Shown in pieces: positions 38,092-43,490 of a stretch of 64,000 nt of DNA. Origin of the DNA: an uncultured Verrucomicrobiae bacterium (GTDB taxonomy: Bacteria; Verrucomicrobiota; Verrucomicrobiia; Limisphaerales; J093); assembly GCA_937946835.1 (NCBI GenBank), contig CALFAV010000040.1, positions 1 to 64,000 on the forward strand, read 5' to 3'. The translations under genes were made by a program, and so were the position numbers. The notes below the pieces were generated by a model. The model had not been told where the DNA came from. It saw only the letters and a list, made by a program, of their open reading frames with translations, and made no database searches. The number at the start of each line of letters is the position of its first letter. Position 1 is the stretch's first letter.

Positions 38092-39627
38092 TCACAGCCA
38101 GATCATCAGGATTCCCACCCCGACCGCAATCCTGGCCGGCCAACGTCCCACCCCGGCCAGGGACCAGCTCTGGGATTGGTACAGGCCCAGCAGGCCGAGC
38201 AACAGGGCCAGAAGGCCCAGCAGGCGCGTGATCCCCAGCAGGGGCGTGGGCATCCAGTTCAGGGCCACCAACGTCCGCACCCCCGCCGCGAGCACCGCCA
38301 GCAGCAGCGCGGACCAGGCCAGGTCGTTGCGATTGGCCGAGCCGAAGGCCTGGCGGAGCGCGTCTGCCACCGGGGATCCGCTCGGTGTGGCCCCGCCTCC
38401 CCACCGCCGCGCTCGCCAGGGGCGCCCACCGCCGGGGGAGCCGCTCGAAGGCGGAATGGGCCGGGGCAGGGGCGGCATTCGCCCGCCCGGGATGGGCCGG
38501 CCCGGGTAGGGCAGGCTCCAGCCGGAGGTTTGCTTGAGGCGGGTCCGCGCCACGGGCGCGGGGCGCAGGTGCTCCCCGGCCTGGACGGCGGCCACGCTGG
38601 GAAAGGGGTCGCGGCCGCCGAGCATGGCGGCGCGTTCGCACCAGGGGCAGGCGCCGAGGTGGTTGCTGAAAATGTGCTGCTGGTTGTCGTGGCAGGAGAC
38701 CAGGTTCAACTCCGCCTCTTCCAGGCCGAACTGCCAGCTCAACGGGTCGGGCCGCAGGCTCGGCTCGAGGTGTCCGTCCCGGAAGCACCGGCAGAAGAGG
38801 TTTTGCAGCACCGGGTGCAGCCACTCGAAGCGCGGGGCGGCCGGCATGGCCGTGTAGGGCACGCGGGGGTCGCCGCCGTGCGGGAAGTGTCCGGCGGCGA
38901 TGCGTGCGGGCAGGGGCGGTGGTTCGCCCGGGCCGCGGTACACGCCCGCGAACGGGTGCGTGCCTTCCATGAGCAGTTGGAAGATCAGGATGCCCAGGCC
39001 GAAATGGTCGTGCACCGGCTCGCGGTTGATCTGGGCGAAGGATTTGCCCTGCAGCTCCGGCGGCGTGAATTCCGGCCGCCCCACCCGGCAGCGGAACAGC
39101 GTGCCGCTGGCGGCGTCCCAGACCTGGAACGAGTCGGTGTCCACCATCGTGACCAGCGCGGTTTCGGAGGCGAGGATGTTGCACTCGTTGAGATCGCCGA
39201 TCACGTAGCCGCGCTCGTGCAGGGCGCGCATGGCGGTGGCGAGGTTGCGCGCGGTGCGGTGCAGGTAAAACCAGTTGAACAGCGGCGAGTGCTGGAGGCG
39301 GGTCTTGGGGTTGAAGTAGTCAATCACCGGCCGCACCCCCTGCACGCGCGGCATCACAAACCCCACCACGGTCGGCCCGGCCAGGCGCACCAGGCCGGTG
39401 GGCCAGGCGATGGCCACGTGGCCCTGCGCGGCCATGGGATCGGCCGGTGGATTGGCCAGCATGGCGCGGACCTTGCGGGCGCGGTCGGCGGTGGGCTTGT
39501 GCCAGAGCTTGATGACCTGCGCGGGGTCGGTGGGGTGAACGAAAATGCGCGCCTCGCCGCCGGCGGCCAGTTGGTGGTGCTCGCCCACTTCCACCGCCTC
39601 GCCGGTCGCTTCCAGGTACAGCCGCAT
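38092..39627 (-). CDS. Atypical protein kinase of the TerY-P triad type, with Cys cluster and C-terminal TM segments
   Basis: AAGGEARIFVHPTDPAQVIKLWHK; LHERGYVIGDLNECNILASETALVTMVDTDSFQV; RPEFTPPELQG; CHDNQQHIFSNHLGACPWC; two hydrophobic C-terminal segments. Confidence 0.82.
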   Translation of the reverse strand: MRLYLEATGEAVEVGEHHQLAAGGEARIFVHPTDPAQVIKLWHKPTADRARKVRAMLANPPADPMAAQGHVAIAWPTGLVRLAGPTVVGFVMPRVQGVRPVIDYFNPKTRLQHSPLFNWFYLHRTARNLATAMRALHERGYVIGDLNECNILASETALVTMVDTDSFQVWDAASGTLFRCRVGRPEFTPPELQGKSFAQINREPVHDHFGLGILIFQLLMEGTHPFAGVYRGPGEPPPLPARIAAGHFPHGGDPRVPYTAMPAAPRFEWLHPVLQNLFCRCFRDGHLEPSLRPDPLSWQFGLEEAELNLVSCHDNQQHIFSNHLGACPWCERAAMLGGRDPFPSVAAVQAGEHLRPAPVARTRLKQTSGWSLPYPGRPIPGGRMPPLPRPIPPSSGSPGGGRPWRARRWGGGATPSGSPVADALRQAFGSANRNDLAWSALLLAVLAAGVRTLVALNWMPTPLLGITRLLGLLALLLGLLGLYQSQSWSLAGVGRWPARIAVGVGILMIWL

Positions 39628-39629
39628 GG

Positions 39630-40424
39630 TTAGTCGCGCCGCCGCGCCAGCAGCAGGGTCAGGTCATCCTCGGTGCGCTCGGTCACCCGCGGTGACCGCA
39701 ACCAGGCTTCCAGTTGCTCCCGGGCGTCGGGTGCATCGCCGCTCCGGCCGAACCACGCGAACAGGGGCCGGAAAAACGGCGCGTGCGGCGCCGCCTCGGG
39801 CATCTTCAGGGCGAGCATTTGCAGGCCGTCCGAAAACAGCGCCAGCTCCCGCGGCACCCCCGCGCCCGACTCGATTTGCAGCCGGTCCAGCGCCCCGTCG
39901 GAGGTCACGAAGACCGTTTCGTTCAGATACTCGCCCGCGGTGGGGCGGGTGAGCGCGCGCCAGGCCCCGTCCGCGCCGGCAAACACCACCGCACCGTCGC
40001 CCACCTGGGCGGCCCAGAGTTGTTCGGCCGTGGCCACGCACACCAGCAACGTGGTCGCGAGCTCGCCCGGGCCGGCCTGCCGCTTCTGCGCCTCGGCGGA
40101 CAGGGCGTCGCGCGCGGCCAGAAAAGCCGACCGCAGCCGGGCGCGGGCGGCGGCCTCGTCCCGTCCAAACTCGGGCAGTTCGGGTGCGGCCTCCAGATGG
40201 TCCAGCGCGGCGCGGGTGGCGGTCTCGGAGCCGACCTCGCTCAGGCGCGCTGAGCCGGCGCCGTCGGCGACGGCCGCGAGCAGGACCCCGCGCACCACGC
40301 GCCAGGCCACGGCGTCCTGGCAGGGCTGGCCGGTTTTCTCATGGCCCTTGCCCCGCACGGCCGCGGCCAGCACGGTCCAGGGCTGGGTGGACAGGGCACG
40401 CTTGGCGAGGCGCAACAGGCTCAT
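39630..40424 (-). CDS. PP2C-family Ser/Thr phosphatase (TerY-P triad)
   Basis: AAVRGKGHEKTGQPCQDAVAWRVVRGVLLAAVADGAGSARLSEVGSETAT...AQVGDGAVVFAG...LFSDGLQMLAL. Confidence 0.87.
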   Translation of the reverse strand: MSLLRLAKRALSTQPWTVLAAAVRGKGHEKTGQPCQDAVAWRVVRGVLLAAVADGAGSARLSEVGSETATRAALDHLEAAPELPEFGRDEAAARARLRSAFLAARDALSAEAQKRQAGPGELATTLLVCVATAEQLWAAQVGDGAVVFAGADGAWRALTRPTAGEYLNETVFVTSDGALDRLQIESGAGVPRELALFSDGLQMLALKMPEAAPHAPFFRPLFAWFGRSGDAPDAREQLEAWLRSPRVTERTEDDLTLLLARRRD

Positions 40425-40523
40425 GCGGGGTGGGAGAGAAAGCGGCTCAAGCGGGGGCCGGCTCGGTGTGCGGGGTGTCCGAGAGTCGGACCAGTCCGAC
40501 GGGGCCTTCGGGCTTTGCCCGGC

Positions 40524-41198
40524 TCACACCGTGCCCCAGCCCGGGGGCGGCAGGGCCACCTGTTCATCGGTGCGCGAGTGGGCCACGCTTTCCATGCTGC
40601 GGGAGAGCCAGACGAACATTTCGGTGAAGTTGAGCCCCTTGAGCTTGACCGGGGTGCGCACGACGATTTGCGCCAGCCGCTCCATGTTCGCGCCCTCGAC
40701 GCCCACGGCGAAGAACGCCACGCGCTTGGCGGCCTCGTCGTTTTTGAGCCGCTGGGCGGCGGCCTCGACGATGCTCTCGGGTTCGCCCTGCGGCTCGCCG
40801 TCGGTGATCATGAACACCCAGGGCCGGTAGTAGGCCACGCCGTTGGCGCGGTACTGCTGCTTGCGGGCCTGGATCATGTCCAGCGCCTTGTGGATGGCCC
40901 CGCCCATGAAGGTCTGCCCCTGGGCGGTGAGCCGCGGCGGCTCGAAGCGCTCGGCGGTGGTGAAGTCGTGGGCCAGCTTGATCTCGTTGTCGAAGGTGAC
41001 CACGGCCACCTCGACGCGCCGGCAGGCCATGGGGTCCTTGACCAGTTGCTCCTTGAAGACCTGCAGGCCCTGGTTGAGCGCCTCGATGGGTTCGCCGCTC
41101 ATCGAGCCGGAGGTGTCCAGCAGCAGCACGCACGGGCAGCGGGGCTCGGGGTTTTCCGCGAACTCGATCGCGTCTTCGAGTTTGATGTTCTCGGGCAT
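40524..41198 (-). CDS. TerY-like VWA domain protein
   Basis: PCVLLLDTSGSMSGEPIEALNQGLQVFKEQL (MIDAS DxSGS), GQTFMGGAIHKALDMI, PWVFMITDGEPQGEPESIVEAAAQRL. Confidence 0.9.
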   Translation of the reverse strand: MPENIKLEDAIEFAENPEPRCPCVLLLDTSGSMSGEPIEALNQGLQVFKEQLVKDPMACRRVEVAVVTFDNEIKLAHDFTTAERFEPPRLTAQGQTFMGGAIHKALDMIQARKQQYRANGVAYYRPWVFMITDGEPQGEPESIVEAAAQRLKNDEAAKRVAFFAVGVEGANMERLAQIVVRTPVKLKGLNFTEMFVWLSRSMESVAHSRTDEQVALPPPGWGTV

Positions 41199-41296
41199 GG
41201 ACAGGACCAGTTTGGGACCGACGGCTCAACGCCTCAATTATCGGACTGACGGTGCCTTTGTAACCGGGACGGCCCGGCCGGGCAAGTCCCGGCGCC

Positions 41297-42322
41297 TCAG
41301 GGTTCAAAGGCGCCGCCGCCCGCGCCGTCGAGCAGGCGGCTGAAATAGCCCGTCCAGAACGTGACGATGAAGTAGCCCACCACGCCGGCGATGAGCAGGA
41401 ACACCAGCCGCGGCGTCCATTCGGCCAGGTGCTTGTACAGGCGCGCGGCCTCGTCGGCGTAATCCGCGTGCAGGTAGGCCAGGGACTGGTCCAGGCGGCC
41501 GCTGAGTTCGCCGCTGCGGTACAGGCTGGTGAATTTGGCGGGGAAGGCGGCCTCGCGGGCGATGGCCTCGCCCGGGGTTTCCCCGGCCACCATCCGCTCG
41601 CGGGCACGGGCCGCGGCCACCTCGAGGGCGGGCGAGCCGCTGGCGGCGGCGGCCAGCGGCCAGGCGTCGAGGATGTTTACCCCGGCGTTCAAGAGGGCTT
41701 CAAGCGCCAGCGTCAGCCGCGCCAGGGCCATCGAGCGGCGGGCCCGGCCAAAAATCGGAATGGTGTGCAGGACTTCCTCCCACGCGCGCCGAAACCCGCT
41801 CGCCTGGCCGGTGCGGTTCAGGGCCAGCAAGAGCACCTGAATGAGCGCCACCGCGGCCAGGATTTGGAGCTTGGGGATGAGAAAACCAGCCACGTTGCCC
41901 TCCCAGACCAGGTTGGCGAGCGCCCCGGGCGGGAAGATCAACAGCACCAGCAGGAGCAGAAAGATCGGGTAGGCCAGATCGGCGAAAATCGCGCGCAGCA
42001 GCCGGGCCCGGTCCTTGTAGTACGTGGCCAGCCGCAGGCAACAGGCATCCAGGCGGCCGCTTTGTTCGCCGGCGGCGATCAGGGCGATGTCCAGATCCGG
42101 CACCCAGCCGCGGCGGTTGGCCAGGGCCTCGGAAAACGTCGCGCCCTGTTGAAGGTCGGTGATCACCCGGTTCAAAGGCGGACGGAACGAGGCCGCCGGC
42201 GGGGCGTTGCGGATCAGTTCGAGGGCGCGCAGCAGCGTCAGCCCCGAGCCGAGCATGGTGCCCGTTTGGTGGTAAAACTCACCGAACTGATCCAGCCGCC
42301 GGGGTGTCAGAAACAAGGGCAT
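41297..42322 (-). CDS. GspF/PilC-like type II secretion inner-membrane protein
   Basis: Two F-domain halves: FYHQTGTMLGSGLTLLRALELI...GEQSGRLDACCLRLATYY and LTLALEALLNAGVNILDAWPLAA...YRSGELSGRLDQSLAYLHADY. Confidence 0.88.
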   Translation of the reverse strand: MPLFLTPRRLDQFGEFYHQTGTMLGSGLTLLRALELIRNAPPAASFRPPLNRVITDLQQGATFSEALANRRGWVPDLDIALIAAGEQSGRLDACCLRLATYYKDRARLLRAIFADLAYPIFLLLLVLLIFPPGALANLVWEGNVAGFLIPKLQILAAVALIQVLLLALNRTGQASGFRRAWEEVLHTIPIFGRARRSMALARLTLALEALLNAGVNILDAWPLAAAASGSPALEVAAARARERMVAGETPGEAIAREAAFPAKFTSLYRSGELSGRLDQSLAYLHADYADEAARLYKHLAEWTPRLVFLLIAGVVGYFIVTFWTGYFSRLLDGAGGGAFEP

Positions 42323-42386
42323 GGCCGGGGCATTGCCTGCCGGACCCTGCCACGCCGGGGCGGGAATTCAAGCCGGGGCTGCGGGC

Positions 42387-42415
42387 AAAAAAAACTCCCG
42401 CCTTCGGGCGGGAGT
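42387..42415 (-). terminator. Rho-independent terminator (minus strand)
   Basis: On minus strand: ACTCCCGCC-CGAA-GGCGGGAGT followed by TTTTTTT, 30 bp after the pseudopilin stop. Confidence 0.92.
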
Positions 42416-42444
42416 GATCACGCGCTCGCTTGGAAGGGAGCGTT

Positions 42445-43338
42445 TTAGAAGAAGCCGCCGGTGGGACTGTCCGGCGCGGCCCACAATTCGTTGGGCAGGA
42501 TGGCCGGCCGGAAGGTGGTACCACCCGCCACGCCGCCGGCCAGGTCGTAGTACTTCTTGTAGGTGATGCTCAGGGTGCCGCCGCTGATCAGGCCGATGGT
42601 GCCGCGGCCCTTCACGTCCACCGTCACGCTAATGGCCTTGCCCCCGCCGTGGCGCTGGGAGATGCCCTCGTGCGGCTGGTTGCCGGCGTCGTTGAAGAAG
42701 AACGGGGTGTACTCGTCCGCCTCCCACATCAGGTACGACATCGGGTTCATGGCCGACTGCTTGTGGGTGGCGCCAATGGGCGGGAGTGGTGAGGTGCGGG
42801 TGGAATTGACCAACTGGCCGTAGCTGATGACGGACCCGTTCCACGTGTAGCTGGTCAATTTCACGTCGCGCTGGCGGTACAGGTTCTTCTTGGACCCCCG
42901 TGACTCGACGGCGTCTTTCGGGCAGATCAGCACTTTTTCGGTCTCGAGGTAACGTCCCAACTGACTCTGGCGGAAGTAGGGCAGTTGGTTTGTGTACTCC
43001 ATGCTGTTGGCTGCGGAGCGCATCCAGCCCAAGCCGTCAATGTAAGAGGCGTAGCACCAGTTGTTGGGCCCATTGCCCGAACCGCCGGAGACGGTGCCCC
43101 AACTGGGGTGCGGCATGTAGTCGTTGTTGTCGCCCACGTACATGGACATGGCCAACAGGATTTGCTTGTTGTTGCTCAGGTCAATCGAGAGCTGCGCCCG
43201 GTCCTTGGCGCGGCTGAGCGCCGGCAACAACATGCCCGCCAGAATGGCGATGATGGCAATCACCACCAGCAGCTCGATCAGGGTGAAGCCGCCGCGCACC
43301 CGGCCGCTCACCCGCCTGGGAAAGGTTTTGTCGGTCAT
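42445..43338 (-). CDS. Pseudopilin-like protein with prepilin N-terminus
   Basis: [39 protein letters not shown] at 43338. Confidence 0.92.
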
Positions 43339-43490
43339 AAACAACAGGGTTCAGGGTTCGCTGGCGCCATTGGTACCGCGTGCCGCGGCGCAAGGCAAGT
43401 GTGCTTTGCGGGGCACAGGGGGTTGCGGGCATTGGCCTCAGTGACCCGGATTCCAATTGAAAACCGGCGCCTGCCGCGAACACTTCCCGC

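Follow-up and report, generated by a model that had tools for sequence, protein, structure and literature searches.

The window analysed here (64,000 nucleotides, positions 1 to 64,000 of contig CALFAV010000040.1 from an uncultured Verrucomicrobiae bacterium) encodes a VWA-domain protein, a PP2C phosphatase and a protein kinase that constitute a known kind of phospho-signalling module, found here in a Verrucomicrobiota (Pedosphaeraceae-like) chromosome. Judged by sequence homology, the precise name of the triad is the YegL-PphC-YegI branch, which describes it better than TerY-P in the narrow sense; "TerY-P-like" is valid for it in the broad sense only. An unannotated Verrucomicrobiota operon is thereby tied to a module of which E. 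coli work has characterised a part, and comparison across phyla tells the kinase motifs, Cys/His cluster, VWA and PP2C, which form an invariant core, apart from an exchangeable tail. That separation makes the sensing question open to experiment, and of these findings the pattern of exchangeable tails most deserves further study. The triad and its associated sites comprise:

40524-41198, minus strand: VWA-domain protein of YegL/TerY type (COG4245-like), leading gene of the triad, 224 aa (Pfam VWA, 2.9e-12)
39630-40424, minus strand: PP2C Ser/Thr phosphatase of PphC type, 264 aa (Pfam PP2C_2, 1.1e-54)
38092-39627, minus strand: protein kinase of YegI type, 511 aa (YegI homology, motifs, hydrophobicity, AlphaFold2 model, PDB folds)
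38638-38694, minus strand: codons for the zinc-ribbon-like cluster C312..H318..H323..CPWC, kinase residues 312-330 (conservation in 72 kinases)
41237-41264, minus strand: weakly supported promoter-like site preceding the VWA gene in the gap, with the sequence GTTACA-16-GATAAT

Identity and linkage of the three genes

A preliminary description of this DNA had placed three minus-strand genes here in the transcription order VWA, PP2C, kinase, and the open reading frames bear it out, as they do the MIDAS motif DTSGS (VWA residues 28-32), the PP2C motif DGAGSA and the 2 bp (39628-39629) that separate the PP2C stop codon from the kinase ATG; the VWA-PP2C gap is 99 bp. HMM searches against Pfam gave strong VWA and PP2C_2 matches, and the Pkinase match (5.1e-06, 26.5 bits) falls under the curated cut-off of 31.7 bits. 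Compared with the nearest relative (L033), differences at codon positions 1/2/3 are 0.06/0.02/0.30 for VWA, 0.29/0.22/0.49 for PP2C and 0.20/0.16/0.39 for the kinase, and this excess at third positions supports coding for all three. The promoter-like site was observed once vs 0.1 expected in shuffles, and has no clear conservation in L033.

All three products align with E. coli proteins by BLASTP: VWA with YegL (52% identity, 225 columns, E=1e-76), PP2C with PphC (35%, 257 columns, E=9e-41) and the kinase with YegI (31%, 337 columns, E=3e-46), the last alignment spanning the CPWC motif. On the E. coli K-12 chromosome yegL, pphC and yegI stand in the triad's order, with yegJ intervening in the opposite direction. 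In a tree of 34 VWA proteins, whose long ter branches are flagged by the program, the window VWA groups with YegL and relatives from Verrucomicrobiota and Cyanobacteria, and three ter VWAs with eight order-level relatives lie across a split supported at 100/100; within this tree the window VWA is not in the ter TerY clade. In contigs labelled Omnitrophota (L036) and Poribacteria (L043) the VWA gene has 81% and 74% identity, respectively, to that of the window, closer than expected for their phyla; these may be mis-binned Verrucomicrobiota contigs or reflect transfer. Order-level relatives (L022-L030) have a second family of TerY-type VWAs with about 30% identity to that of the window; of its eight members in the tree, which lie on the ter-operon side of the split, five have a PP2C-like gene within 1.5 kb.

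For gene-neighbourhood comparison, contigs were scanned with a two-sequence VWA alignment and the 80 best loci kept, mainly from Nostocales and Verrucomicrobiota and also from Armatimonadota and Myxococcota. The linkage of the three genes is conserved across phyla, all lying within 8 kb in 72/80 loci, a count that does not equal 72 independent events in a Nostoc-rich set picked by VWA similarity. Every complete locus (72/72) has the order VWA>PP2C>kinase on one strand, and this constancy argues that the gene set is not due to chance. Several of the remaining eight loci stop at contig edges, and orphan VWA genes with long flanks occur at L034, L037 and L084. No other neighbour recurs across phyla in the 80 loci as an extra partner gene. 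At the Hormoscilla locus (L046:10001-17398) about 5 kb separates PP2C from kinase, vs compact triads elsewhere.

YegL-type VWA genes were found in about 19/146 order-level genomes (roughly at least 42% identity, plus one contig-edge fragment), 10/14 same-family genomes among them; the distribution is largely vertical in the family and patchy in the order. Among incomplete same-family MAGs, G003 and G005 have VWA and the PP2C-kinase pair on different contigs, and in G001 the pair is present and VWA was not found, so co-regulation of VWA with PP2C and kinase may not be strict. In G003, which is of the same genus, a group II intron maturase-like reverse transcriptase lies between the T2SS-F gene and the orphan VWA (contig C23, L034:7993-9339), and on contig C35 the matches to PP2C and to kinase are each spread over more than one frame, which may reflect frameshifts or errors of assembly.

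Neighbours of the triad in the window encode UvrC, a DEAD/DEAH helicase, Der, a PHP protein, T2SS-F and a prepilin-like protein, and further neighbours a glucoamylase, an alcohol dehydrogenase, DUF1501 and DUF1800. The T2SS-F gene, preceded by the prepilin-like gene, is directly upstream of the triad (41297-43344, minus strand). Among the loci compared, T2SS-F keeps this position in none but the closest relatives (L033-L035) and was rejected as a conserved partner on that account.

Anatomy of the kinase

The window kinase is divided as follows:

Residues about 1-307: kinase domain
Residues 312-330: Cys/His cluster, C312-H318-H323-C327PWC330
Residues 361-418: disordered linker (AlphaFold2 model)
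Residues about 435-455, 461-485 and possibly 495-510: predicted membrane helices (hydrophobicity and model)

To call this kinase atypical, as had been done, overstates the case: it retains Lys, HxD-type Asp, Asn, DxD and APE-like motifs (K40, D145, N150, D163/D165, P190-E191), and its model has a protein-kinase fold. Among 72 full-length kinases G23-G24-E25, K40, D145, D163, D165, T188-P189 and E191 are invariant, C312, H318, H323, C327 and C330 are 100% conserved (YegI included), and N150 is present in 99%. The AlphaFold2 model, built on a 20-sequence alignment, has a mean pLDDT of 83.3 and is confident over the kinase domain and Cys/His cluster. Foldseek matches it to protein kinases in the PDB (E about 1e-8), where a sequence search returned generic kinases only. 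Its tail helices span 419-428, 435-455, 461-485 and 495-510, two of which are marked as membrane segments by hydrophobicity. Pfam gave no OB family match, and the modelled tail consists of the disordered linker followed by helices; nor was there an HHH match in the window kinase, and in E. coli YegI itself HHH is a weak match (E=9e-4).

The C-H-H-CPWC cluster occupies the position at which TerY-P kinases reportedly have their C-terminal zinc ribbon (PMC11090510). Tails of YegI-type kinases differ by lineage, with TPR in cyanobacteria, HhH in E. coli, WD40 in L091 and one further kinase among 20 scanned, and many hydrophobic segments in L083. Because tails vary across the family, the HhH tail of YegI is a variable trait and not defining for the module. 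At L082:11536-13434, in a genome labelled Deltaproteobacteria/Myxococcota, a YegI-type kinase has a DsbA-like thioredoxin domain with CPFC fused after the membrane region, a possible redox-sensing tail.

Proposed mechanism and alternative readings

With the identities and order of the genes, the conservation of catalytic and Cys/His residues and the diversity of tails established here, the triad is probably a YegL-PphC-YegI switch, comprising a membrane-anchored Ser/Thr kinase, a PP2C that resets it and a VWA substrate or scaffold. According to PMC13232886, which cites Rajagopalan and co-workers (2018, 2020), the Ser/Thr kinase YegI of E. coli is bound to the membrane and autophosphorylates, and PphC dephosphorylates it. 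By homology to YegI and PphC, the same reactions are proposed for the window triad: the C-terminal helices would hold the kinase at the membrane, the kinase would autophosphorylate, and PP2C would strip the phosphates and so reset the switch, dephosphorylation of the kinase being carried over from E. coli. The VWA protein is most likely phosphorylated by the kinase or acts as its scaffold. The Cys/His cluster probably binds metal, linking the kinase core to the variable membrane tail, and tail and cluster together form the likely input side. It is conceivable, and is put forward tentatively, that kinases of YegI type serve as a general receptor chassis, in which kinase and Cys/His metal site are coupled through a membrane segment to an exchangeable tail (TPR, WD40, DsbA-like, HhH or two to three helices) and signal through a common YegL-type VWA and PphC-type phosphatase; the window would then hold the minimal form, with membrane hairpin and metal site alone as sensor.

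The PP2C and kinase might instead be the working pair and the VWA an independent protein merely tending to adjoin them. Their adjacency is kept in G001, G005 and G003 while VWA is absent or elsewhere, the orphan VWAs point the same way, and VWA evolves far more slowly than its neighbours (93% identity to L033, vs 63% and 75% for PP2C and kinase). This reading is nevertheless unlikely, since three-gene linkage in 72/80 VWA-selected loci, drawn from several phyla, exceeds what neutral proximity would explain. TerY-P-like kinase-OB anti-phage systems were reportedly tested by Gao and colleagues in 2020. A similar anti-phage role for the window triad, or one like that of the CoCoNuT TerY-P genes, would accord with defence loci reported to have the same three domain types (PMC11090510) and with weak PADLOC matches (TerY, E = 0.0067; kinase models, at best 4.8e-5). 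However, these scores are near background and E. coli YegI scores similarly to the window kinase, for which reasons defence-system membership was rejected; the UvrC, helicase, Der, PHP and T2SS-F/prepilin neighbours are not a defence island, an OB-fold was undetected in the window kinase, and inheritance is largely vertical in the family (10/14 genomes), all of which leaves this role quite improbable.

It is very unlikely that the triad is a TerY-P module for metal stress or tellurite, working together with Ter proteins from other genomic locations. The domain set is common to plasmid ter triads and the window triad, the ter-operon kinase also has a Cys cluster (CPYC) behind its kinase domain, and one TerC-family protein is encoded on another contig of the genome. 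TerD, however, had no match in the genome (89% complete), no ter gene is conserved beside the triad in the loci compared, and the window proteins share only 26-31% identity with the PP2C and kinase of the ter operon and, in the two nearest full-length alignments, with its VWAs. Membership of a ter operon was rejected on the absence of TerD and the 100/100 separation of the two groups in the VWA tree. The stress or defence module suggested in the preliminary description gains no support for a tellurite or phage role: the PADLOC matches are weak, most of the adjoining genes have housekeeping or unrelated functions, and nothing in the window favours either function.

Comparison with known systems

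The TerY-P triad of ter (tellurite resistance) operons was reportedly described by Anantharaman and colleagues in 2012. A plasmid ter operon (L113, with TerD) resembles the window in having VWA, PP2C and a kinase whose catalytic domain is followed by a Cys-rich motif, but it contains three VWA copies, TerD and biosynthetic genes, its VWAs form a separate clade, and its PP2C, kinase and full-length VWA alignments are about 26-31% identical to the window proteins over most of their length (one ter VWA reaches 41% over half its length). The window retains broad-sense TerY-P features, namely linked VWA, PP2C and a kinase with a predicted C-terminal metal-binding motif. The earlier TerY-P identification therefore holds for the linked kinase, PP2C and TerY-type VWA, but the close relatives are chromosomal yegL-pphC-yegI and the VWA is split from ter TerY. 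Likewise, the triad does stand alone, outside a ter operon, but it is not a peculiar variant, because its chromosomal relatives and the VWA tree make this the ordinary state of the YegL-PphC-YegI branch.

The PpkA/PppA pathway of the T6SS likewise joins a kinase-phosphatase pair, with a shared target, to a VWA component, which in PpkA lies within the same polypeptide as the kinase; in the window the VWA is a separate protein and no T6SS genes were recognised beside the triad. TerY-P genes in Type II/III-A CoCoNuT loci encode the same three protein types (VWA, PP2C and a Ser/Thr kinase with a C-terminal zinc ribbon; PMC11090510), but the McrB-type GTPase, helicase-nuclease and HEPN partners of those loci are absent at the window triad, whose kinase differs in having membrane helices. 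Relative to E. coli yegL-pphC(yegK)-yegI, the window triad is without yegJ and yegD beside it, its kinase does not have the ~200-aa tail with helix-hairpin-helix of YegI, and it keeps the Asn at N150 that YegI, alone among the 72 kinases, has lost to Ser. All three proteins are nonetheless homologous over their catalytic parts, the Cys/His cluster and membrane helices are common to both kinases, and the gene order and strand are identical.
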